In this document: piece after piece, positions 11,090 to 64,000 of the stretch | Position numbering within the stretch: the stretch's first letter is position 1 | How the letters are laid out: every line of letters starts with the position of its first letter | Source of the DNA: Hypericibacter terrae | GTDB lineage: Bacteria; Pseudomonadota; Alphaproteobacteria; Dongiales; Dongiaceae | Direction: 5' to 3' | DNA length: 64,000 nucleotides | Assembly: GCF_008728855.1 (NCBI RefSeq) | Contig: NZ_CP042906.1 | Location: 2,232,001-2,296,000 of the forward strand | Translations under genes and position numbers: made by a program | Notes under the pieces: generated by a model | Told to the model about the DNA's origin: nothing | Database searches by the model: none | Seen by the model: only the letters and a program-made list of their open reading frames with translations

Positions 11090-13761
11090 CGTCCGAGCCG
11101 ACGCGCGGGTCGACGTCTGCGAGCGGCGACCGGTCGCTGGCGCGCTATCGCGCCAAACGGGACTTCAAGGCGACGCCCGAACCGCGCGGCCTCAAGGCCC
11201 GCTCGCGGGGCCACCGTTACCTGATCCAGAAACATGCGGCGCGCCGCCTTCATTACGATTTCCGGCTGGAACTGGATGGCGTGCTGAAGAGCTGGGCCGT
11301 CACCCGCGGTCCCAGTCTCGATCCCGCCGACAAGCGTCTTGCGGTCCATGTCGAGGACCATCCGCTCGACTATGGCAGCTTCGAGGGAATCATCCCAAAG
11401 CCCCAATATGGCGGGGGCACGGTGATGCTGTGGGACGAAGGCAGCTGGGAGCCGCTCGGCGATGCCCATGCCATGCTCCGGGCCGGCCGGCTCAAGTTTC
11501 GGCTCGACGGAGAACGGCTGAAGGGCGAATGGAATCTGGTCCGGATGCGAAACCGCTCGCCGCGCGAGAAGCGCGAGAATTGGCTCCTGATCAAGGGCCA
11601 TGATAGCGCGGCGCGGCCGGGTGAGGGCGACAGTCTTCTGGAAATGGAAGATAGCAGCGTCGTCTCCGGCCGCAGCATGGAGGAAATCGGCCGCAGCCGA
11701 TCGGTCTGGAACAGCAAGGCGCGGCAAGACGACAAGACAGCGAAACCGGCTGCCGAGCTGAAGGGGCGGCCATCGCCATCGGACAGGCGGGCCGCGCCGA
11801 CGAAAGCGGCCAAGCGCACCGCGCTGCCGGATTTCGTCGAGCCGCAACTGGCCACCCGGGTCGAAGCGCCGCCCGAGGGGGCCGACTGGCTGCATGAGAT
11901 CAAGCTCGACGGTTACCGGATCCAGGCGCGGTTGGAGCGACGCAAGGCACGGCTTCTCACGCGCCGCGGGCTGGACTGGAGCCACCGTTTCGCCAGCATC
12001 GCCGCGGCCATAGAAGCGCTCCCCGCCAAGACCGCCCTGTTCGATGGCGAGATCGTCGCCTTCGCCGAGAACGGGTTGTCCGACTTCGGGCGCCTGCAGG
12101 CGATCCTGGGCGGCGAGGAGGAGGGCGAGCTCGCTTTCGTACTCTTCGATCTCCTCTATCTCGACGGCTATGACCTTCGTCCCCTGCCGCTGCTCGAGCG
12201 CAAGGCGAGGCTGTTGAGGCTGCTGGGCGCGAACGAGCGCGGCCCGCTGCGCTTCAGCCAGCATTTCGACCGCGATGGCGCCGAGATCTATCGCCATGCC
12301 TGCGAGCTCGCCCTCGAAGGCGTGGTGTCGAAACAGGCGCATGCTCCCTACCGGCCGGGCCGAGGGCTCGGTTGGCTCAAATCCAAATGCCGCGAGCGAC
12401 AGGAATTCGTGATCGCCGGTTTCACCAAGCCGGCGAAGGGCTTGCCCGGCATCGGATCGCTGGCCCTGGGCTATGGCAGCGAGGGGGCCTTTCGCTATGC
12501 GGGCCGCGTCGGCACCGGCTTCAGCCAGCAGCAGTCGCTGGCCTTGAGGCGCAGGCTCGAGCGAATCCGTCAGGACAAGCCGCCCTTCGACGCGCTGCCG
12601 GCGGCCGTCCGGCGTGGCGTCACATTCGTCAAACCGACGCTGGTGTGCGAGATTGAGTTCGCCACCTGGACGCGGGATGGTCTCGTTCGCCAGGCCTCGT
12701 TTTTGGGCTTGCGCGAAGACAAGCCCGCCAGCCAGATCACACGCGAGAAAATCATGGCACGCGCGAGCACGCCGTCGTCGAGGACCGAGAAGGAAAAGCC
12801 CGCCCGTCCCACCCGGCGAAAGCCGACCGCAGCCGCGAAGGACGAGGCAGCGCGCTCCTCGAAGGAGGAGAGTTTCCATGGCGTCCGGCTCACCCATCCC
12901 GACAAGCTCCTCTACAAGGAGCAGGGCATCACCAAGCAGGACCTGGCGCAGTATTATGTCGATGTCGCGGACTACATCATGCCGCATGTGCGCCGGCGCC
13001 CGCTGGCGATCGTGCGCTGCCCGGACGGCGCCAGCGGCGCCTGCTTCTACCAGAAGCATCTCTCCGCCGGAATGCCCGACGCCATCAAGCCCTTCAGCGT
13101 CAAGGGCAGGACCGGGCGCGAGACCTATGTCTCGATCGAGGATGTGCGAGGCCTGATCGCGCTGGTGCAGTTCGGTGTGCTGGAGCTGCATCCCTGGGGC
13201 GCTTCGGTCGACGATGTCGACAAGGCGGATCGCATCATCTTCGATCTCGATCCCGATCCCGGCGTCGCGTGGCCGGACGTCGTCAGTGCGGCCGAGGAGG
13301 TGCGCGAGCGGCTGAAGGAACTCAAGCTCGAAAGCTTTCTCAAGACGACGGGCGGGAAGGGGCTGCATGTTGTCGCCCCGTTGAAGCCCGCGATAGCGTG
13401 GGAGCCGGTCAAGCGTTTGACGCAGGTTGTCGCCATGAGCATGGCATCCGACAATCCCGCGCGTTATCTGGCGAAGGCGTCGAAAGCGGCGCGCAAGGGC
13501 AAGATCTTCGTCGATTATCTTCGCAACGACCGCGGCTCGACGGCAGTCGCACCCTATTCGACCCGGGCGCGCGAAGGGGCACCGATATCCGCGCCGCTCG
13601 AGTGGCGCGAGCTCGGACCCCGCGTCAAATCCGATCAATTTTGTCTCGAAAACATCCGGGATCGGCTGGCCCGGTTGAAGCGCGATCCCTGGGAGGGCTT
13701 TTTCAAGCTCCGCCAGAGCCTGAATTCGAAAACGCTGGCGCAACTGGAAGCGTCGCCTTGA
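11086..13761 (+). CDS. ligD: ATP-dependent DNA ligase LigD (PE-ligase-polymerase)
   Basis: Three domains are visible in 891 residues. First is a 3'-phosphoesterase domain (about 45-165; HYDFRLEL at 56-63). Second is an adenylating ligase domain with catalytic Lys273 in KLDG and an OB fold up to about 560. Third is a C-terminal primase-polymerase domain from about 610, with the metal motif FDLDPDP near residue 718. The two linkers are basic and proline-rich. The order PE-ligase-polymerase is as in Pseudomonas. It seals ends held by Ku, whose gene overlaps by 4 bp. Confidence 0.97.
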   Translation: MTSEPTRGSTSASGDRSLARYRAKRDFKATPEPRGLKARSRGHRYLIQKHAARRLHYDFRLELDGVLKSWAVTRGPSLDPADKRLAVHVEDHPLDYGSFEGIIPKPQYGGGTVMLWDEGSWEPLGDAHAMLRAGRLKFRLDGERLKGEWNLVRMRNRSPREKRENWLLIKGHDSAARPGEGDSLLEMEDSSVVSGRSMEEIGRSRSVWNSKARQDDKTAKPAAELKGRPSPSDRRAAPTKAAKRTALPDFVEPQLATRVEAPPEGADWLHEIKLDGYRIQARLERRKARLLTRRGLDWSHRFASIAAAIEALPAKTALFDGEIVAFAENGLSDFGRLQAILGGEEEGELAFVLFDLLYLDGYDLRPLPLLERKARLLRLLGANERGPLRFSQHFDRDGAEIYRHACELALEGVVSKQAHAPYRPGRGLGWLKSKCRERQEFVIAGFTKPAKGLPGIGSLALGYGSEGAFRYAGRVGTGFSQQQSLALRRRLERIRQDKPPFDALPAAVRRGVTFVKPTLVCEIEFATWTRDGLVRQASFLGLREDKPASQITREKIMARASTPSSRTEKEKPARPTRRKPTAAAKDEAARSSKEESFHGVRLTHPDKLLYKEQGITKQDLAQYYVDVADYIMPHVRRRPLAIVRCPDGASGACFYQKHLSAGMPDAIKPFSVKGRTGRETYVSIEDVRGLIALVQFGVLELHPWGASVDDVDKADRIIFDLDPDPGVAWPDVVSAAEEVRERLKELKLESFLKTTGGKGLHVVAPLKPAIAWEPVKRLTQVVAMSMASDNPARYLAKASKAARKGKIFVDYLRNDRGSTAVAPYSTRAREGAPISAPLEWRELGPRVKSDQFCLENIRDRLARLKRDPWEGFFKLRQSLNSKTLAQLEASP

Positions 13762-57624: not shown

Positions 57625-57700
57625 GTCCCCATCGTCTAGAGGCCTAGGACACCGCCCTTTCACGGCGGTAACAGGGGTTCGAATCCCCTTGGGGACGCCA
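57625..57700 (+). tRNA. tRNA-Glu (anticodon UUC)
   Basis: The acceptor stem is GTCCCCA / TGGGGAC and the D arm runs through TCGTCTAGAGGCCTAGGAC. The anticodon stem CCGCC / GGCGG has loop CTTTCAC; anticodon TTC lies at 57659-57661. The T arm is AGGGGTTCGAATCCCCT. GCCA is encoded at the 3' end. The change in gene content to the right suggests it may be an integration site. Confidence 0.97.
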
Positions 57701-57789
57701 GCATCTTAGAAAGCTCACTAACACAAGCAATTCAAGGGCTTCCGGGGAGCTGCGTTTGAGCGTACCACACACGCCAGCCACACACGCCT

Positions 57790-58620
57790 TTAGACCTCCG
57801 AGGGACTTCCTGTTGACTTGGTGCCCGCGGGGGGCTGGGAAGGCGCTTGCGGCTGCTGACCTTGCCTAGCCGTCTCCTTCACGGCAGCCGCCTCGGTGAT
57901 TGCCTTCATACGCTGAGCCCGCTGGTGGCGGCTGACGTACCACTCCGCGAACAGCTGTTCGACTAGCTCGATGAGCAAGTTGGCCTCGTCCTCGTCAACA
58001 TCAATTACCAAGTTGATGTCGCTCTCCATGTGCGCGCCGATGTTGCCGATCTTTCTGACCGCGTCGATTGCCGCCCAAACCTCCGGCGCGACGACGCCAT
58101 GCAATGCCTCAATGGCATCGACCAACCTGCGCTTTTCAATTCCGTGGAAGTCCCGGATCATCCCTTGAAGGCAACGGCGCGCTAAAGTGGCTGCCGCCTT
58201 TGGGCTCAGCGCTGCAATCTTGCACGCCTCCTCATAGTCTTGTCGCAGAGCCAGCGGAATGTACTCCGGCTGTGGGCGCGCTCTAGATGACGGGCGAAGG
58301 CTCCAATGGCCCAGCACGGCTGTTAGCTTTTCTGGATTAACCGTGTTGTCGGCCGTCCACCAATCTGCGGACAGACTCAATTCCTGGCACGCGGGATTGG
58401 AACAAAGATGCTGAGTGATTATCAGTCTTGTCGTGCCGTGGCGGCTCTCAAAGCACGATACATTATCAAAGTGAACGTTAGTGCCGCGGTGCGCCGTGAA
58501 ATGCCCGCAGTAGGGGCACTGGCGTGATAGAGACTGGACCACAGACTGCTCCTGGCTAGTTTGCCAAACGATACCAGCTAGCTCCGTACACTCAAACAAC
58601 TCCTCATTGCTGTGCGTCAC
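57790..58620 (-). CDS. DUF4145-like protein with zinc-ribbon N-terminus
   Basis: About 276 residues. The first half carries CPYCG (Cys35, Cys38) and HLCSNPAC (Cys73, Cys78), a four-cysteine zinc ribbon. The second half has ARRCLQGMIRDFHGIEKRRL and IGNIGAHMESD, the signature of DUF4145, found in proteins linked to restriction and other defence genes. The tail is Q/P/S-rich. GTG at 58620 overlaps the end of the nuclease gene by 17 bp, suggesting coupling; the longer frame upstream is antisense-like basic sequence. Confidence 0.75.
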   Translation of the reverse strand: MTHSNEELFECTELAGIVWQTSQEQSVVQSLSRQCPYCGHFTAHRGTNVHFDNVSCFESRHGTTRLIITQHLCSNPACQELSLSADWWTADNTVNPEKLTAVLGHWSLRPSSRARPQPEYIPLALRQDYEEACKIAALSPKAAATLARRCLQGMIRDFHGIEKRRLVDAIEALHGVVAPEVWAAIDAVRKIGNIGAHMESDINLVIDVDEDEANLLIELVEQLFAEWYVSRHQRAQRMKAITEAAAVKETARQGQQPQAPSQPPAGTKSTGSPSEV

Positions 58621-59239
58621 ACGCGCACCCCGGCGCCTTGTGACACGTCTTCGACCTGCTGATGCACGAGTTACCGCACGCTTTCCCCGTGGTGCAGACC
58701 TTGCGGCACTGCTGAGTTGCATCTTGGGGGATCGGTGTCTGCGGTCCTGAGGTTGTCGTCTCGCCTCGCTCTTGTGCCCGCCAGTCCCACGGCGCGGTGA
58801 ACGTTCCCGCCCATATCCCGAGCCCGGCAGCGTGCGCGGCTTCCTCTTGTGGAACATAGTCTGTCGAGTAGTGGCGGTACGCGAGCGCCCACCCCTGGCT
58901 AACCATCCAGGCGTTTAGGTCTTCGCTGCCGAGATAGCAGACTGCGACCGTGCGGCCGTAGCGGTCGGTGTCTCGCGGGTCGCAGGTGACGGGGCTTGAC
59001 CCGACATGGTCAGCCAGAGCGAAGGCCGCTTTCTGTCCGCAACGGTATTGCTGGCCCTGTGCTTCGCAGAGTTGCCGACTTTCGGGTGCATCAATGCCGA
59101 ATAGGCGGATGCGCGTCCCGTGAATTTCGAGGGTGTCCCCATCGACCACCGAGGAAACGCCGGTGATCCCTCCTCCAGCCAATGATGGAGAAGTCGCCAG
59201 CAAAAACCCGGCGATCAGGACTATAATTGCGCGACTCAT
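58604..59239 (-). CDS. Secreted thermonuclease-family nuclease with Cys-rich tail
   Basis: A 211-residue protein. A signal peptide is at 1-21 (IIVLIAGFLLATSPSLAGG). The staphylococcal-nuclease-like domain is at about 24-150 with VVDGDT (Asp33, Asp35), RLFGIDAPE (Arg45, Asp50, Glu53) and DRYGRTVA (Arg96), all catalytic positions present. The C-terminus (180-211) has six cysteines (CRKVCTTGKACGNSCISRSK, then TCHKAPGCAC), probably disulfide-bonded and found on other secreted nucleases. It is exported to the periplasm or outside. The DUF4145-like gene overlaps its end. Confidence 0.9.
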   Translation of the reverse strand: MSRAIIVLIAGFLLATSPSLAGGGITGVSSVVDGDTLEIHGTRIRLFGIDAPESRQLCEAQGQQYRCGQKAAFALADHVGSSPVTCDPRDTDRYGRTVAVCYLGSEDLNAWMVSQGWALAYRHYSTDYVPQEEAAHAAGLGIWAGTFTAPWDWRAQERGETTTSGPQTPIPQDATQQCRKVCTTGKACGNSCISRSKTCHKAPGCACDAQQ

Positions 59240-59366: not shown

Positions 59367-60392
59367 ATGCCAATTCGCAAATGGAGTGCTGTAGCTCTGT
59401 TGGTAGCGGCTGCCATACTGACACGAGCGACCGAAGCCGACGCGCAAGATATTCCCTGTATGAAAGGGAAAACCATCGTCCTAGACGGCACCTGCTGGAA
59501 CAACCTTTCTCCCGATCAGAGGACCAGCGCCATGTTTGGCATGTTTGCCGGCATAAGCACCCGCTCTTGGGCAGTTCGACTGCAAGGAAATCGTGTAAGT
59601 GACATCCCGCGAGGTTGGACGGTTATGCCGAGCAGCACAACGGTGGGAGATGTAGAGAGCTACTTCGATCAACTCTATAGGACGCCAGCCAATCGCGAGA
59701 TCAAATGGGAGTGGGCTTACATTTTGGCTGGGATGAACGCGCGAGACGACGATAGCAATGACAGTCGCTCTCTATTGAAGTTTCTTCGTGAACACGGCGA
59801 TGTTCCCACATCGGGCAATCTGGTTGGAGCGACAGGCCCAGATACAATTGTGGTGCGCACGGACAAAGGAGACTTTGAAGTCAAATTGGAGGGAGTCACA
59901 GCTGACGGGCTCACTCCTCAACAGAAGGCAACGGCCACGGCCTTTTTGAAAGGCCTGAGCCAGTCAGACTCCTTCATTAACGCGATCTATAAAGGTCGAG
60001 CGGTTTGCAAACCACCGGAAGGGGCCAATGTTACGCTGAATTACGGCACGCAGATATTCTCGGACGACAATCAGCTGTCCGCAACGGTCACGCTGCTTAA
60101 CTTTGATGAGCTTTGCATGGGCAACCAGCCAGTTACATTGGAGTACCTTGCAAAGGCGGGAGGATTTGCTGATCCTTCAACGGAGATATCGCTCAATGCG
60201 CTCGTTTTATCCATCGGTTTGGCTCTTCCTGACACTCAAGCCGATCCAAAATGGCCGGAGGCAATTGTGAGAGATAGAGACCTTTCCAGCGTGTCGGAGA
60301 GAGCAAAGGAAGCGGAGCGGTACATCTTTGGGCCTGGCCGCAATGGCCTGATCGATCAGGTTGTGAATATCGGCCTTAAAGCGACAAACTAG
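59367..60392 (+). CDS. Exported hypothetical protein, low GC
   Basis: A 341-residue protein with a signal peptide (SAVALLVAAAILTRATEADA, cleaved before QDIP). The middle (GPDTIVVRTDKGDFEVKLEG, then TAFLKGLSQ and IYKGRAVC) has the order of a thermonuclease-like beta barrel but lacks clear catalytic arginines, so it may be a degenerate relative (weak inference). Five cysteines are in the mature part. GC and codon use are lower than in the core genes. It is divergent from the secreted nuclease across a 127-bp AT-rich gap. Confidence 0.65.
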   Translation: MPIRKWSAVALLVAAAILTRATEADAQDIPCMKGKTIVLDGTCWNNLSPDQRTSAMFGMFAGISTRSWAVRLQGNRVSDIPRGWTVMPSSTTVGDVESYFDQLYRTPANREIKWEWAYILAGMNARDDDSNDSRSLLKFLREHGDVPTSGNLVGATGPDTIVVRTDKGDFEVKLEGVTADGLTPQQKATATAFLKGLSQSDSFINAIYKGRAVCKPPEGANVTLNYGTQIFSDDNQLSATVTLLNFDELCMGNQPVTLEYLAKAGGFADPSTEISLNALVLSIGLALPDTQADPKWPEAIVRDRDLSSVSERAKEAERYIFGPGRNGLIDQVVNIGLKATN

Positions 60393-60443: not shown

Positions 60444-60562
60444 CTGACCAACGCCCCACCCTCAGGACCCTCCGTCACGATTGTTCTACTGGCTGCACTC
60501 CACAGAGTGCACGCGTTCGAGTCGTGAGGTTGGCCCAGAGAGTGGGGCGCCGCGGTGGTCAG
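60444..60562. repeat. Nested long inverted repeat (structured element)
   Basis: Arms CTGACCA (60444-60450) / TGGTCAG (60556-60562) enclose CGCCCCAC (60452-60459) / GTGGGGCG (60542-60549). Inside these lie TCACGA (60475-60480) / TCGTGA (60522-60527) and an apical hairpin TGCACTC-CACA-GAGTGCA (60494-60511). All pairs are in register, giving one 119-bp extended stem-loop between two convergent genes. It may be a bidirectional terminator, a non-coding RNA or a recombination/attachment structure. Confidence 0.7.
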
Positions 60563-60828
60563 TTATCGAACCCCCTCACTGGAACCCGCAGTCGCCATAT
60601 CGGGTCATGATTGGCGAACCGCAGGTACACAGCCGGTGCTCCCATGTAGGTCGTCTCAATGCGTTCGGTGACGGCGCCCCACTCAGGTGGTGGAACGAAC
60701 GTCATACGGTACGCATCGCCTACAGGCTGGTTCTTGGCTCGGTCATGAGCTGCGCTGGCTTCACGCTGGAATGAGGCGAAGTCCTGCGCGGCCTGAGACG
60801 CGAACCGCGCAAGGTCTCTGTCACTCAC
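60559..60828 (-). CDS. Small protein, last gene of unknown operon
   Basis: An 89-residue protein: a helical N-terminal half (LARFASQAAQDFASFQREAS) and a short beta-rich end (YRMTFVPPPEWGAVTERIE, YMGAPAVYLRFAN). Not recognised. Its start overlaps the preceding gene by 4 bp (ATGA). The right arm of the long inverted repeat ends on its stop codon. Confidence 0.6.
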   Translation of the reverse strand: MSDRDLARFASQAAQDFASFQREASAAHDRAKNQPVGDAYRMTFVPPPEWGAVTERIETTYMGAPAVYLRFANHDPIWRLRVPVRGFDN

Positions 60829-61058
60829 CCTCGCCTCTCTCTGTTGCGCCGCCAGCGTTCCAGCGCAAGGCGGTTCTCCTCATTGGTGACCTTGACGGCA
60901 TTGGCGCCGAAGATGAACCCCTGCCGTTGGCTATAGACCCACGCATCCCTCGACATCGTGACGGATGCCGGGGCCTGAGAGTGCTTGCGCCACTCGGATA
61001 GTAGAGCCTGTTCCCGGTGGCCGGTGGGCGAGAGAACGCCAGGACGTGCAGCGATCAT
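60825..61058 (-). CDS. Small basic protein of unknown operon
   Basis: A 77-residue, arginine-rich protein (WRKHSQAPASVTMSRDAWVY; NRLALERWRRNRERRG). Not recognised. It overlaps its neighbours by 4 bp on each side (ATGA junctions), arguing that it is real despite its size. Nucleic-acid binding is possible from charge alone. Confidence 0.55.
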   Translation of the reverse strand: MIAARPGVLSPTGHREQALLSEWRKHSQAPASVTMSRDAWVYSQRQGFIFGANAVKVTNEENRLALERWRRNRERRG

Positions 61059-62080
61059 CGGCGACCGCGCCGCGAGACGGTGACGAAACCGGACAGGACC
61101 GCAGATTTAAAGTCCACCTCCCCTTGAGGTGTCTTTAGGATGATCCGATCACCCGCCTGGTAGGCACTCACGCCCGGCGGAAATTCCGCGTTGAGCACCA
61201 AGTGGGGCGCGTGGATGGGCAGGGCCGCGATGTAGTCCTGAGCGAGCGCCTTGAAACCGGCTCCCCGGTCGTCAGACGCGATTGCCCACATAGCCTTTTT
61301 CAGGTCGTTGGGCTTGTTGGCCCGAGCCCACTCCGCGACAGCTTGAAGGTCCACTGGCGCGACCTGTGCAACGGCCCTCGCAGCCTGTTCGCCGAACTTG
61401 CCGACGAGCGCCTCGACCATGCCGGCTGCCTTGTCGGGCTCGATGTGCATTGAGCTTGCGATGTGCTCCAGGGTGGCAGGGGTTATGCCGTCGCCTTCGA
61501 TCAATTGGCGCATCGCTGCCAATCGGTCACCCTCGCGCGTGCCGTTGATGATCGTTTGCGCCAGCTTCTGGCCTTCGCTGTCGATATCCTCTCCGGCATC
61601 AACACGCGGGGCGGCCGGCTGCTGCTGTTGCTGTTTGTCGAACTGGTCGAACGCATTCTTCGGCGGTTCGACAATGCGGCCATCCGGGGTCTTGATCAGA
61701 TCCCCCGTGCGCAGAAGCGCCTTGACCTGAAATTCGCCACCTCCTGGCAGCCGAACCACGCTGTTCTCGTCGATTTCGTGGCGACCGAGCGGGCGACCGG
61801 AAGTTGTCCGGGCGTTGTCGAGCCAATGCGAACCTTGAGCGGGCGCGTCAGTGGACTTCGCGACGTTGGCGACCGTCTCCTGAGTCACCTTGCCGTCTTT
61901 CACGGTCACGCGATGAACATCGCCTACCCACTTACCCGAGGCGCCGCCGGACTGCGATTGCTCCGACTGCTCGGGCCGTCTCGCGCCGACTTGGTATCGC
62001 GACACGCCACCGGGCAAAATTTCGATTTGCCCGCTGTCGTCGCTGCTGTTGCTGTTCTGGATTTCCAGGCTGTTACTCAT
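61055..62080 (-). CDS. Unknown modular protein (341 aa)
   Basis: A 341-residue protein with a Ser/Asn/Gln-rich disordered N-terminus, two beta-rich modules (VHRVTVKDGKVTQETVANVA; RLPGGGEFQVKALLRTGDLI, where a GDL-I-TPDGR pattern recurs), a polyglutamine run after FDKQ, a helical middle (residues 150-270) and a final beta-rich module (GVSAYQAGDRIILKTPQGEV). It looks like a virion or conjugation structural protein, but I cannot name it. ATG at 62080 has AAGGA 10 bp upstream and overlaps the preceding stop by 8 bp. Confidence 0.65.
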   Translation of the reverse strand: MSNSLEIQNSNSSDDSGQIEILPGGVSRYQVGARRPEQSEQSQSGGASGKWVGDVHRVTVKDGKVTQETVANVAKSTDAPAQGSHWLDNARTTSGRPLGRHEIDENSVVRLPGGGEFQVKALLRTGDLIKTPDGRIVEPPKNAFDQFDKQQQQQPAAPRVDAGEDIDSEGQKLAQTIINGTREGDRLAAMRQLIEGDGITPATLEHIASSMHIEPDKAAGMVEALVGKFGEQAARAVAQVAPVDLQAVAEWARANKPNDLKKAMWAIASDDRGAGFKALAQDYIAALPIHAPHLVLNAEFPPGVSAYQAGDRIILKTPQGEVDFKSAVLSGFVTVSRRGRR

Positions 62081-62825
62081 TCGTTGGTTTTCCTTCATTG
62101 GTGCCGGCCCCTTGCCCACTGGCGAGGCTGGCAGTGCCGGCGAGGATCATGGTTAGAGCGGTTGGAACGGGGTTGGAGGCGTTGACCTTGGCGACGAGCT
62201 TTCGCGCGACCGAAAGGGCCACGACGCCAACGTGTCTGTTGAGCGCCTCGCTCAGAAGGTCGCGAACGCCAGACGTTATGCGGTCGTGCCTTCGGTACTC
62301 GTGGCATCCACGGTGCATGGTGGTGATACGCTCCGCACGAGCGAGGCGCAGGACGCGGATGGCGAGTTGGTGGTTGAAGTGGCGGTCACTGCGGAAGACC
62401 TGGGGCGACCATTCCCGGTAGGCGCAAATCCCGATAGCAATGGCCAGCATCTCGACCGGGGAGACTTCCTGTCGCCGCAGCTTGACGAGCCAAGTCAACA
62501 GACGGTCGTGGGCGGTTGACTTACGAGTGATCTCGGCCGGTGCGGCGCCACTCGCATAGACAAGCGCCTCTAGCCAACTCAGCGCTTTTGCAATGCGGGG
62601 GTGGTCTTGGTGCCTGTCGAGGTAGCGCCGAGCGCCTTTGACGAACGGCTCAAACTCTCGTCGTCGAATGGTGCGGCCGAGAGGGTGACCGGTCTCCTGT
62701 GCTCTGCGGTCGTGCGCTTCGCACCATTTGCCAAAGTGTTGCCGAGGTAAGTGGCAGCCTGAGACCTCACACGTCCGCGCCTTCGCTGCACATTCCGCCA
62801 ACCGCTGGCGGATGGGCGTCGTCAT
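62073..62825 (-). CDS. Unknown protein with N-terminal CxxxxCH...CxxH metal site
   Basis: A 250-residue protein. The N-terminus has Cys19, Cys24, His25, Cys35 and His38 (TCEVSGCHLPRQHFGKWCEAH), a zinc-binding pattern of the HNH/treble-clef kind seen in phage and plasmid proteins. The rest is helical and basic, with a hydrophobic glycine/alanine segment near the end (TALTMILAGTASLASG). Not recognised. Overlaps both neighbours (4 and 8 bp). Confidence 0.65.
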   Translation of the reverse strand: MTTPIRQRLAECAAKARTCEVSGCHLPRQHFGKWCEAHDRRAQETGHPLGRTIRRREFEPFVKGARRYLDRHQDHPRIAKALSWLEALVYASGAAPAEITRKSTAHDRLLTWLVKLRRQEVSPVEMLAIAIGICAYREWSPQVFRSDRHFNHQLAIRVLRLARAERITTMHRGCHEYRRHDRITSGVRDLLSEALNRHVGVVALSVARKLVAKVNASNPVPTALTMILAGTASLASGQGAGTNEGKPTNE

Positions 62826-63019
62826 CTTTCGAGCTTGGCGACCTTGCAGCGTGTCGCGCCGGGATGTTCAGCCTCGACCGCTGCAATCGCCGCGACGAAC
62901 CGGTCGAGTAGGTGGGGCCGATGTTTCAAGCCCCTCAGCTTCATCAACACCTTTCCGGCCCTGTCGAGTTGGCGGGCGGCTGCTTCGCCCTCGGGAGACA
63001 CGGGCTTGTTGTCGGTCAT
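62822..63019 (-). CDS. Small protein of unknown operon
   Basis: A 65-residue helical protein (GEAAARQLDRAGKVLMKLRG; LLDRFVAAIAAVEAEHPGA). AAAGGAA stands about 8 bp before the ATG at 63019, deciding this start over one two codons earlier. Its stop overlaps the next start by 4 bp. Not recognised. Confidence 0.6.
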   Translation of the reverse strand: MTDNKPVSPEGEAAARQLDRAGKVLMKLRGLKHRPHLLDRFVAAIAAVEAEHPGATRCKVAKLER

Positions 63020-63038
63020 GGTCATTTCCTTTGCATAG

Positions 63039-63455
63039 TTACGGATCGGGGAGAGCGGGCAGGGGATCACCAAAGAGGGGGCGGATGGGTTCCGCTTCAC
63101 TGTCCGCCTCGGGCAGCTGGTTCAGGACCTTTGCAAGGGCGACGTGTTTGCTCTCGCCGATACGGTCGAGGGATTCATTGGTGACCTTGTTGTCGGTGAG
63201 GAACTGGCGAGCCACGTTGATCATGGCCGCCTTGTGGTCTTCCTTTTCGGGAGACTCCAAGGACTGGGCGATGGCTTCGGCTGTGGCCCTCCAGATGCGC
63301 TCTAGGAGTGCCTCTCGGGCAGCCCGGCCAGTTAAAGGGGCGTCGGTACCTTGGCTGTTGCCAAGGCTGGTCCCTTGGCTTTCGCCAAGGCTGGTCCCTT
63401 GGCTTTCGCCAAGGCTGGTCGCGCCCTCCCCAGCCGGGGGTGGCGTTTCGGTCAT
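63039..63455 (-). CDS. First gene of unknown operon, with octapeptide repeats
   Basis: A 138-residue protein. Residues 13-36 are three tandem octapeptides TSLGESQG, TSLGESQG, TSLGNSQG, encoded by 24-bp DNA repeats. The rest is helical (REALLERIWRATAEAIAQSL; DHKAAMINVARQFLTDNKV), a length and pattern reminiscent of small-terminase or scaffold-like proteins, but no family is recognised. The ATG at 63455 is chosen; the upstream frame is proline-rich and crosses the control region. Confidence 0.6.
   Translation of the reverse strand: MTETPPPAGEGATSLGESQGTSLGESQGTSLGNSQGTDAPLTGRAAREALLERIWRATAEAIAQSLESPEKEDHKAAMINVARQFLTDNKVTNESLDRIGESKHVALAKVLNQLPEADSEAEPIRPLFGDPLPALPDP
63349..63414. repeat. Three 24-bp tandem repeats, each a hairpin
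   Basis: Units at 63349, 63373 and 63397, period 24 bp, each contain CCTTGGC-(TTTC or TGTT)-GCCAAGG, a perfect 7-bp stem with a 4-nt loop. They lie inside the gene at 63039 and encode its octapeptide repeats. Confidence 0.85.
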
Positions 63456-63629: not shown

Positions 63630-63747
63630 GAACCCCTCCTGGGGATTTCCTATCAGGTGCGGTGCTTTTCCTCAGGTAGAACACCCCCGACATGGGGACG
63701 CTCAAACTGAACCGCTCCTGAGGGATTTCTTATCAGGGACGGTTCAG
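63630..63747. repeat. Two copies of a 34-bp element in the operon control region
   Basis: Copy 1 at 63630-63663 and copy 2 at 63709-63743 share GAACC-CTCCTG-GGGATTTC-TATCAGG with few differences. Copy 2 is enclosed by CTGAACCG (63707-63714) / CGGTTCAG (63740-63747) and can fold into a two-part stem just after the stop of the minus-strand gene at 63755. They lie within the 299-bp gap 63456-63754, which holds no other gene. Confidence 0.65.
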
Positions 63748-63754
63748 TTGCTGG

Positions 63755-64000
63755 TTAGAAGATGCGGACAAGGGAGTTACCCTCTACGCGCCACGGCGAC
63801 AGCTGCAAGGCTGCGTCCCTTGCGCGCCTGAACGACTGGTTCGGGACTCCCTCTAAGCCGGTCGCCTTCTTCAACTGCCGGACGGACACCTTGCTGGTCC
63901 CTTCCGGTAGCCGACCAAGGAACTCCGCGATGGTGGCCGCGGTCGTGTTCTCCTTGGCACCCCGGAAGGTGGCAGTTACCGACCGCCAGGGCTCGACCTT
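63755..64000 (-). CDS. C-terminus of a possible replication/DNA-binding protein, cut by window
   Basis: The minus-strand frame is open from the right edge for 81 codons to a stop at 63755. It reads ENTTAATIAEFLGRLPEGTS, VSVRQLKKATGLEGVP, QSFRRARDAALQLSP and WRVEGNSLVRIF in sequence. A helix-turn-helix-like arrangement ending in a short beta strand (RVEGNSLVRIF) resembles the C-terminal winged domain of phage/plasmid primase-helicases and AAA ATPases. The family is an inference from this short piece. Confidence 0.6.
   Translation of the reverse strand, partial: KVEPWRSVTATFRGAKENTTAATIAEFLGRLPEGTSKVSVRQLKKATGLEGVPNQSFRRARDAALQLSPWRVEGNSLVRIF

Follow-up and report, generated by a model that had tools for sequence, protein, structure and literature searches.

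The window, the whole 64,000-nucleotide stretch that was analyzed, contains a six-gene minus-strand operon lying within a longer element, E1. This element is 14.1 kb in size, extending from 57684 to window-equivalent 71827, and is bounded by 19-bp direct repeats. The locus holding E1 is designated L006, and coordinates beyond 64000 are given as L006 or window-equivalent positions. Its features are:

57625..57700, plus strand: tRNA-Glu (TTC), the integration target (ARAGORN)
57684..57702, no strand: attL, a 19-bp direct repeat derived from the tRNA-Glu 3' end (exact repeat search)
57790..58638, minus strand: DUF4145 protein, PD-T7-4-like by PADLOC, cargo with a possible defense role (Pfam, PHROGs, PADLOC)
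58604..59239, minus strand: staphylococcal-nuclease-like protein, cargo (Pfam SNase, E = 8.2e-17)
59367..60392, plus strand: 341-aa ORF, cargo, with no Pfam or PADLOC family
60559..60828, minus strand: p89, operon gene 6 (ORF list; conserved in E2 and E3)
60825..61058, minus strand: p77, operon gene 5 (ORF list; conserved in E2 and E3)
61055..62080, minus strand: p341, operon gene 4, with polyQ and a putative gp9-like helical region at about residues 155-270 (profile comparisons)
62073..62825, minus strand: p250, operon gene 3, a putative zinc protein (Cys/His at C19, C24, C35 and H38)
62822..63019, minus strand: p65, operon gene 2 (ORF list; order kept in E2 and E3)
63039..63455, minus strand: first operon gene, predicted T7 gp18-type small terminase (DNA_Packaging_2; PF11123, phrog_891, hhalign, phage-only gp18 profile)
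63349..63414, minus strand: three in-frame hairpin-forming repeats, within the small-terminase gene at its 5' end
63631..63750 (approximate limits), minus strand: non-coding stretch with two hairpin-like repeats, between the helicase and small-terminase genes
63755..64000, minus strand, continuing to window-equivalent 65662 (L006:6756-8663): 635-aa P-loop helicase-like gene, its 3' end in the window
L006:12454-13410, outside the window: AbiTii gene, cargo
L006:13439-14728, outside the window, at the far end of E1: tyrosine integrase
L006:14810-14828 (window-equivalent 71809-71827): attR, the second 19-bp copy, 14,125 bp from attL

The original prediction had described six overlapping minus-strand ORFs forming one operon, and their starts, ends and overlaps were as claimed: from gene 1 to gene 6, a 19-bp gap is followed by overlaps of 4, 8, 4 and 4 bp. 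The repeats of gene 1, the Cys/His motif of gene 3 and the polyQ of gene 4 were all present as well. The predicted extent, 60559-63455, holds for the operon, but the unit reaches far past it to the borders of E1. A neighborhood comparison recovered the same six-gene order in two related elements, E2 at tRNA-Gln in the same genome and E3 at tRNA-Gln in the congener G014. E2 has the 19-bp gap and overlaps of 4, 8, 4 and then 4 or 1 bp, with TTG or the next ATG, respectively, as the start of the last gene; E3 has the 19-bp gap and four overlaps of 4 bp.

Purifying selection, which had been suggested as a check on these frames, acts on most of the six genes. The dN/dS values (NG86; E1-E2/E1-E3/E2-E3) were low for p250 (0.09/0.10/0.16), p341 (0.23/0.19/0.16), p89 (0.16/0.14/0.08) and, with few changes, the small terminase (0.20/0.19/0.11). 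Those for p77 were laxer (0.20/0.49/0.42), and those for p65 (0/0.58/0.70) rest on at most 6 synonymous changes.

It had been claimed that none of the six proteins matches a known family, and for gene 1 this does not hold: it matched PF11123 with an E of 5.8e-10 and 39.6 bits, above the curated cut-off of 27.5, and phrog_891 (terminase small subunit) with an E of 1.1e-5. The HMM-HMM comparison that had been proposed links it by hhalign to seven Autographiviridae gp18 proteins (probability 95.7, E = 9.9e-9), and gp18 ranked top among 132 phage families with a score of 40.9 versus 17.6 for the next. A profile built from phage gp18 proteins only found gene 1 of the window (E = 4.7e-8) and had the small terminase as its top match in the loci of E1, E2 and E3 (E = 1.9e-8 to 7.3e-8). 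The comparison with sequences of solved structures gave nothing significant. On these profile matches, gene 1 is firmly predicted to encode a T7 gp18-type small terminase.

A distant element was found on a plasmid of Eleftheria terrae, where it occupies 14.7 kb at tRNA-Ala between 17-bp repeats and has the helicase, p250 and p341 arranged in the order seen in E1. Its gp18-like ORF is weak, with a PF11123 E of 0.005 (under the cut-off), an hhalign probability of 3.6, an E of 0.14 with the phage gp18 profile and no match with the E1-E3 profile. Its p341 homologue was recognized by a profile of E1-E3 and G200 (E = 3.3e-7), and it is mainly through this protein that p341 is linked to phage scaffolds. 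A five-sequence p341 profile that includes it matched phage scaffolds by hhalign (probability 79.5, E = 1.5e-5) and placed scaffold first of the 132 families (36.3 versus 23.2), as did the Eleftheria homologue alone (33.0 versus 19.6). Conversely, a six-phage scaffold profile found the Eleftheria homologue with an E of 6.3e-4, its sole match below E 0.05 in 14 loci.

The signal declines when the Eleftheria sequence is left out. The E1-E3 and G200 profile matched the six scaffolds with a probability of 44.5 and an E of 2.3e-4, and still ranked scaffold first of 132, at only 27.4 versus 22.7 (probability 6.5). With the E1-E3 profile, scaffold fell outside the top four families; p341 of E1 alone gave a probability of 1.9, and G200 p341 alone ranked scaffold second, without significance. 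In the reverse direction, window p341 was outside the top four matches of the phage scaffold profile in L006, while p341 was found with E values of 3.1 in L007, 0.28 in L013 and 0.16 in L024, as the top match in the latter two. No match to p341 was seen in Pfam or NCBIfam, none that was significant among sequences of solved structures, and phrog_3760 (head scaffolding) matched only one of the five members, with an E of 0.14. The single-sequence structure prediction was unusable (mean pLDDT 44.2). Taken together, a scaffold domain like that of T7 gp9 is probable in p341, an assignment we hold with moderate confidence.

The p341 profile also matched small-terminase ORFs (E of about 0.003), which was taken to reflect composition, and a 66-aa ORF of L061 (E = 8.9e-5).

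The E1-E3 profile of p250 identified homologues in Eleftheria and in G407 (E = 1.6e-9 and 2e-7), in both of which p250 comes after the helicase gene. Because the pair co-occurs in the G407 element, in which searches gave no packaging gene, we regard p250 as a probable DNA-binding partner of the helicase; its single-sequence structure prediction was unusable (mean pLDDT 41.9). Among the 132 phage families there was no convincing match for p77 or p89, and in PHROGs p89 approached a nicking family with an E of only 0.34.

The helicase-like gene stands upstream of the operon. Its 635-aa product contains TGMGKT and WDE motifs, belongs to no Pfam family, was unmatched at E 0.01 among 50,697 phage records and had no significant match among sequences of solved structures. 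The DUF4145 protein at the opposite side of E1 was identified by Pfam (E = 5.9e-13), phrog_1305 (E = 1.9e-33) and PADLOC PD-T7-4 (E = 4.7e-14), and the adjacent nuclease-like protein begins with a putative signal peptide. Neither Pfam/PHROGs nor tblastn revealed a large terminase, capsid, portal, tail-tube or RNA polymerase gene of T7 type in E1. These Pfam/PHROGs scans took in the main ORFs of E1 and E2 rather than every small ORF, and among the ORFs scanned there was no capsid family, relaxase, transfer gene, AlpA-type regulator or PICI-type replication gene; nor was a T7-like capsid seen by tblastn. Seven CRP-125 proteins (RNA polymerase, portal, scaffold, capsid, tail tube B, large terminase and DNA polymerase) gave zero matches in five element loci by tblastn at E 1e-3, a single-sequence search that may overlook remote relatives; the same run detected a 60% identical large terminase in the control locus L027. 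At the empty-site check for E1, G014 had a match to the tRNA-Glu side and no counterpart of the right flank.

PF11123 is rare in chromosomes. Matches at E ≤ 0.001 occurred in 4/385 genomes of the class, the genome of E1 included, and matches above the cut-off in 2/385; the count in controls was 0/14. Those in G121 and G316 were under the cut-off. In G324, a T7-type large terminase adjoins the small terminase, and the other six CRP-125 proteins had no match in a 20-kb stretch; this locus is perhaps a prophage. In G200, the helicase and p341 were present and the small terminase was not found, and at six of the 11 helicase loci neither small terminase nor p341 was convincingly seen. The packaging pair is thus not essential to the helicase family. 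Pattern scans, which distant relatives could escape, found no relatives of the helicase, p341 or p250 in the viral contig collection, nor of the helicase in the genome contig collection, and tblastn found none of the three in phages. A search of the genome of E1 for a helper prophage by its T7-type large terminase was negative; the corresponding RNA polymerase search was blank everywhere, controls included, and so uninformative.

We consider it likely that E1 is an integrated phage satellite with a helper among the T7-like phages (Autographiviridae), and that the six genes are its assembly and packaging module. E1 has an integrase, att sites and a length of 14.1 kb, and no complete virion gene set was detected. 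It also carries candidate factors for redirecting helper packaging and assembly, the small terminase firmly and the scaffold moderately assigned, whose action we infer from the genes. The original prediction, that the genes might serve the structure or packaging of a small phage-like element, came close, given a gp18-type terminase and a probable scaffold, but its conjugative option was not supported by the ORFs scanned; a pure defense module is not the best reading either, though defense-type genes ride as cargo. In the mechanism we propose, infection by a T7-like phage would cause E1 to excise and to replicate using its own helicase-like protein. The gp18-like protein would steer the helper large terminase (gp19) onto satellite DNA, and the gp9-like p341 would compete with or replace the helper scaffold, leading helper capsid protein to form smaller shells. 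Such shells would fit a genome about one-third of helper length; the elements measure 14.1-14.9 kb versus 38.9-43.4 kb for four T7-like phages. The cargo may keep other phages out. We see even chances that these elements (found in two congeneric species and, distantly, in a betaproteobacterium) form a satellite family that uses its own gp18-type terminase and gp9-type scaffold to divert T7-like helpers to small satellite-filled capsids.

We explored the possibility that E1 is a decayed T7-like prophage in which the small terminase, possibly along with the scaffold, survives as a relic. The gp18 homologue is phage-like, and integrase genes appear in the records of T7-like phages from Rhizobium, Pelagibacter and a Paracoccaceae strain. 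However, three elements retain the six genes with near-identical overlaps and mostly low dN/dS, no further T7-like gene was found in the element, the helicase-like protein is unmatched in the phage records, and the distant Eleftheria element preserves the order of helicase, p250 and p341. We rejected this explanation, already weakened by the conserved gene set, as very unlikely. We also rejected, with the same low expectation, an integrative element that spreads by conjugation or transformation and just happens to bear phage-derived genes, since the scanned ORFs include no relaxase or transfer gene. It would agree with the plasmid location of the Eleftheria copy and with L025, L034 and L062, where a helicase-like gene and an integrase occur and no packaging gene was found, but the small terminase of E1, E2 and E3 adjoins the helicase in the shared core, outside the variable region.

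It is also unlikely, if slightly less so, that E1 is an interference island that does not travel in particles, its gp18-like and gp9-like proteins acting as dominant-negative decoys against T7-like assembly. The AbiTii and PD-T7-4-like proteins among the cargo are consistent with such a role, and small terminase and scaffold would presumably be the steps where a decoy would bite. Against it, E1 encodes a recombinase, and such elements occupy different tRNA sites in several genomes, which points to transfer of some kind, and known satellites both interfere and travel.

The satellite reading of E1 invites comparison with known systems. SaPIs and PICIs (e.g. SaPI1 with 80alpha) are integrated islands with an integrase and their own small terminase, and PICI hallmarks are an AlpA-type regulator and a PICI-type replication gene. 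E1 resembles them in these first traits and in having a candidate capsid-size or scaffold protein, p341, but its terminase is of the T7 gp18 type, its scaffold candidate is of the gp9 type, its helicase-like protein is different and its scanned ORFs lack an AlpA-type regulator. Unlike cf-PICIs, which have their own capsid gene, E1 had none that was found. P4-like satellites are small, reside at tRNA genes and alter helper capsid size; E1 is also small and tRNA-integrated, and a capsid-size change is proposed for it, but scans of its main ORFs with Pfam/PHROGs gave no P4-type gene and its helper type would differ. Tycheposons and VEIMEs are integrative elements of marine origin, and some of them include a small terminase or capsid gene from a phage. 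To our knowledge a T7-type scaffold is no part of them. The alphaproteobacterial T7-like phages CRP-125, RHEph01 and HTVC011P share with E1 a gp18-type terminase, a gp9-type scaffold candidate and an integrase gene, but they reach about 39-43 kb and encode an RNA polymerase, a large terminase, a capsid and a tail; searches of E1 found none of these genes.

T7-like phages are abundant and serve as a model for phage assembly. We know of no established satellite family tied to T7-like podoviruses, and no described satellite of T7-like phages was found in the open-licence literature searched. If our reading is correct, molecular piracy would extend to T7-like phages, a natural means of altering T7-like capsid size would exist, and a class of unknown-gene islands at tRNA loci would be accounted for; the helicase-like protein, p250 and p341 could serve as marker genes for finding further elements.

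Phage satellites are generally integrated and have an integrase and att sites; published accounts give them a size of 7-20 kb (PMC13376191), the SaPI capsid-size protein CpmA/CpmB acts as a scaffold (PMC5644958), and tycheposons and VEIMEs are named (PMC11389934, PMC10803314). PICMI is described in PMC10803314 as a satellite of virulent phages that has defense genes, is tied to the fis gene, is without identifiable packaging or capsid-remodeling genes and packages several copies into full-size capsids. E1 is similar in its defense-type cargo but differs in its position at tRNA-Glu and in having a small terminase and a probable scaffold.

The non-coding stretch of E2 also has two hairpin-like repeat copies, as in E1, and these are not conserved in E3. 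The hairpin repeats at 63349..63414 comprise three matches with at most two mismatches, versus 0.01 expected.

The six minus-strand ORFs predicted for the operon were recovered with the junctions proposed, namely a 19-bp gap followed by overlaps of 4, 8, 4 and 4 bp. They encode a small terminase (gene 1), p65, p250, the polyglutamine protein p341 (gene 4), p77 and p89. The conserved gene string that the original prediction asked to be searched for was found, since the operon order is identical in two related elements. Here, E1 denotes the element of the window (locus L006), E2 a second one in the same genome of 5.89 Mb and one contig (locus L007), and E3 one in the congeneric genome G014 (locus L013). 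The features are listed here by window position, by locus position or by element.

57625-57700, tRNA-Glu near the operon
57790-58638, DUF4145 protein resembling PD-T7-4 (PADLOC E 4.7e-14), adjoining attL
L006:6756-8663, helicase-like protein upstream of the operon (635 aa; P-loop GLPTGMGKTT, WDE motif)
L006:13439-14728, tyrosine integrase (DUF6538 and Phage_integrase) just inside the far repeat of E1
E1, AbiTii (Pfam E 5.3e-37, PADLOC E 6.4e-38)
E1, SNase cargo (Pfam)
E2, PDDEXK_5-like protein (below cut-off) and a resolvase, both cargo

A 19-bp repeat at 57684-57702 has an exact copy 14,125 bp away at L006:14810 (window-equivalent 71809). In a comparison with G014 for an empty site, the tRNA-Glu side of E1 matched and the right flank had no counterpart. 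The G+C content is 0.57-0.62 in three 2-kb blocks from 58001 on and mostly 0.63-0.70 before (lower around the operon). E2 spans 14,137 bp between 17-bp repeats at a tRNA-Gln, and E3 spans 14,897 bp between 19-bp repeats, likewise at a tRNA-Gln. The operon junctions are a 19-bp gap and overlaps of 4, 8, 4 and either 4 or 1 bp, depending on start choice, in E2, and a 19-bp gap and overlaps of 4, 4, 4 and 4 bp in E3. Purifying selection, which the original prediction had made a point to check, was evident, with dN/dS of 0.08-0.23 in 12 of 12 comparisons of p250, p341, p89 and the small terminase (NG86, E1-E3). By the same measure, the values were 0.11-0.17 for the helicase-like gene, 0.20-0.49 for p77, and 0, 0.58 and 0.70 for p65, which has too few changes to judge by. 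E1 and E2 share segments of 79-97% identity interspersed with unrelated ones. Their synonymous divergence is uneven across genes (small terminase 0.09, helicase 0.15, p250 0.59, p341 0.56), which suggests that DNA may have been exchanged between elements.

The 138-aa product of gene 1 matched Pfam DNA_Packaging_2 (PF11123; 39.6 bits against a cut-off of 27.5, E 5.8e-10) and the small-terminase family phrog_891 (E 1.1e-5); NCBIfam gave no match. Its profile matched seven Autographiviridae gp18/DNA maturase A proteins with a probability of 95.7 (E 9.9e-9), and gp18 ranked top among 132 protein families of four T7-like phages (40.9 versus 17.6 for the next). Conversely, a profile built solely from those seven phage sequences placed gene 1 top in the E1, E2 and E3 loci (E 4.7e-8, 1.9e-8 and 7.3e-8). 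An NVARQFL-DN stretch is common to gene 1 and the alphaproteobacterial T7-like phages CRP-125, RHEph01 and HTVC011P. PF11123 is rare in chromosomes: it occurred at E <= 0.001 in four of 385 genomes of the class, the H. terrae genome counted, and over the cut-off in two of these 385 (H. terrae and G324); none of 14 controls had it. In G324, a gp18-type small terminase adjoins a T7-type large terminase (L027:9609-11610), perhaps in a T7-like prophage.

The small-terminase gene also contains in-frame 24-bp hairpin-forming repeats (core CCTTGGC-GCCAAGG; window 63349-63414). In E2 (L007:11734-11781 and 12992-13049) they occur in this gene and also at the p250 3' end; they may represent mobile palindromes or else a packaging or RNA signal. 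A 33-bp hairpin repeat, CCTGATAAGAAATCCCTCAGG, occurs twice in E2 between the helicase and small-terminase genes (L007:11471-11584), with a similar counterpart in E1 at about 63631-63750 of the window; it is not conserved in E3.

The helicase-like protein matched no Pfam family and no phage protein. Within the order, 17 genomes were searched and two (H. terrae and G014) have its gene; distant relatives occur in G200, G314, G225, G566, G437 and G407 and on Eleftheria terrae and Azospirillum brasilense plasmids. In a profile survey of eleven helicase loci (16-30 kb each), the small terminase was firm in three (E1-E3) and tentative in Eleftheria, where the top ORF by the phage profile (E 0.14) matched PF11123 below cut-off (E 0.005) and the E1-E3 small-terminase profile had no match. 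Homologues of p341 were found in five loci (E1-E3, G200, Eleftheria), and p250 likewise in five (E1-E3, Eleftheria, G407; a G566 match at E 0.031 was set aside). A p250 profile from E1-E3 only found the Eleftheria and G407 homologues at E 1.6e-9 and 2e-7, and the C-x4-C-x10-C-x2-H motif is kept in the former. Given this distribution, the helicase and p250 appear to form a core for replication or control, and the small terminase and p341 a packaging module of some elements only.

The Eleftheria element (plasmid NZ_CP106953; a betaproteobacterium per its database record) is edged by 17-bp repeats 14,676 bp apart and carries, in order, an integrase, an AbiJ_NTD4 protein, a resolvase, the possible gp18-like ORF, the helicase, p250-like and p341-like genes, others and a tRNA-Ala. 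In Azospirillum, a helicase, a resolvase and an integrase lie inside 17-bp repeats 7,190 bp apart. The G200 segment (L024:5976-13794) has serine recombinases, the helicase, an HNH protein and p341; no small terminase was found in it, and its end adjoins an ORF resembling, from its translation, part of a ComM/Mg-chelatase protein. The G407 segment (L062:6017-15397), beside a tRNA-Gly, has ORFs that we read as resolvase-like, antirepressor-like and integrase-like, the helicase and the p250 homologue, with no packaging genes detectable. An iteron-like motif, GTCRARG-N6to8-CTAATC, lies upstream of the helicase gene three times in E1 (L006:9205-9469) and once each in E2 (L007:9006) and E3 (L013:13285), and is a candidate origin or operator.

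No library match (Pfam, NCBIfam) was obtained for p341. Its G200 homologue is 25% identical (blastp E 8.5e-14) and the Eleftheria one 24%, the latter being detected at E 3.3e-7 with a profile built from the four remaining sequences. The five-sequence profile matched six T7-like scaffolding proteins (gp9) with a probability of 79.5 (E 1.5e-5) and ranked scaffold first among the 132 phage families (probability 41.6; 36.3 versus 23.2), as did the Eleftheria protein alone (33.0 versus 19.6). A profile of the six phage scaffolds only found the Eleftheria protein at E 6.3e-4, the sole match below 0.05 in 14 loci. The link is weaker for the window's p341. With the Eleftheria sequence left out, the probability against the six scaffolds fell to 44.5 (E 2.3e-4), and scaffold still led the 132 families, but narrowly (27.4 versus 22.7, probability 6.5). 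The E1-E3 profile gave 37.8 (E 3.4e-4), with scaffold outside the first four of 132; single sequences gave 53.0 (E 1.4e-4) for E3 and 1.9 for E1, and for G200 scaffold came second, not significantly. With the phage scaffold profile, p341 topped the matches of the G200 locus (E 0.16) and of the E3 locus (E 0.28), came fourth in that of E2 (E 3.1) and fell outside the first four in that of E1. PHROGs head scaffolding phrog_3760 matched one of the five members at E 0.14, amid other weak matches. Judged from these comparisons, p341 is a probable, not proven, scaffold relative. A 66-aa ORF in G437 (L061:377-577), some 8 kb away from the gene for the helicase, matched the p341 profile at E 8.9e-5 and was set aside in the survey.

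When CRP-125 RNA polymerase, portal, scaffold, capsid, tail tube B, large terminase and DNA polymerase were used as tblastn queries at E 1e-3, none had a match in the E1, E2, E3, Eleftheria or G200 loci. The same search found the large terminase in G324 (60% identity), the best PF11123 locus, where the other six had no match either; the H. terrae genome had no match to the large terminase. Pfam and PHROGs scans of the main ORFs gave no relaxase, capsid or AlpA families. Since a gp18-like protein occurs with no large terminase gp19 beside it, and the probable gp9 relative with no capsid protein gp10, an integrated satellite with a T7-like helper makes most sense. We infer every step of its course, from helper infection through to transfer. 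The elements, at 14.1-14.9 kb, are about a third as long as four T7-like phages (38.9-43.4 kb), and PMC10803314 states the same ratio for known satellites. CpmA/CpmB of SaPI1 are a precedent for satellite proteins that reportedly compete with the helper scaffold (PMC5644958). Plasmid satellites have been described in vibrios, among them one that encodes capsid protein E as well as a small terminase (PMC13230959), and a review names the families P4-like, PICI, cf-PICI, PLE, PICMI, VEIME, tycheposon and others (PMC11389934). No described satellite of T7-like phages was among the matches listed in the open-licence literature, the tycheposon paper not included.

AbiTii, the DUF4145 protein and the SNase are cargo of E1. 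PD-T7-4 is reportedly a protein from a T7-defence screen, and cargo resembling it would suit a satellite policing T7-like phages. A 351-aa protein (L006:11395-12450) adjoins AbiTii, matches phrog_33379 (unknown function) at E 1.2e-12 and is perhaps a defence partner.
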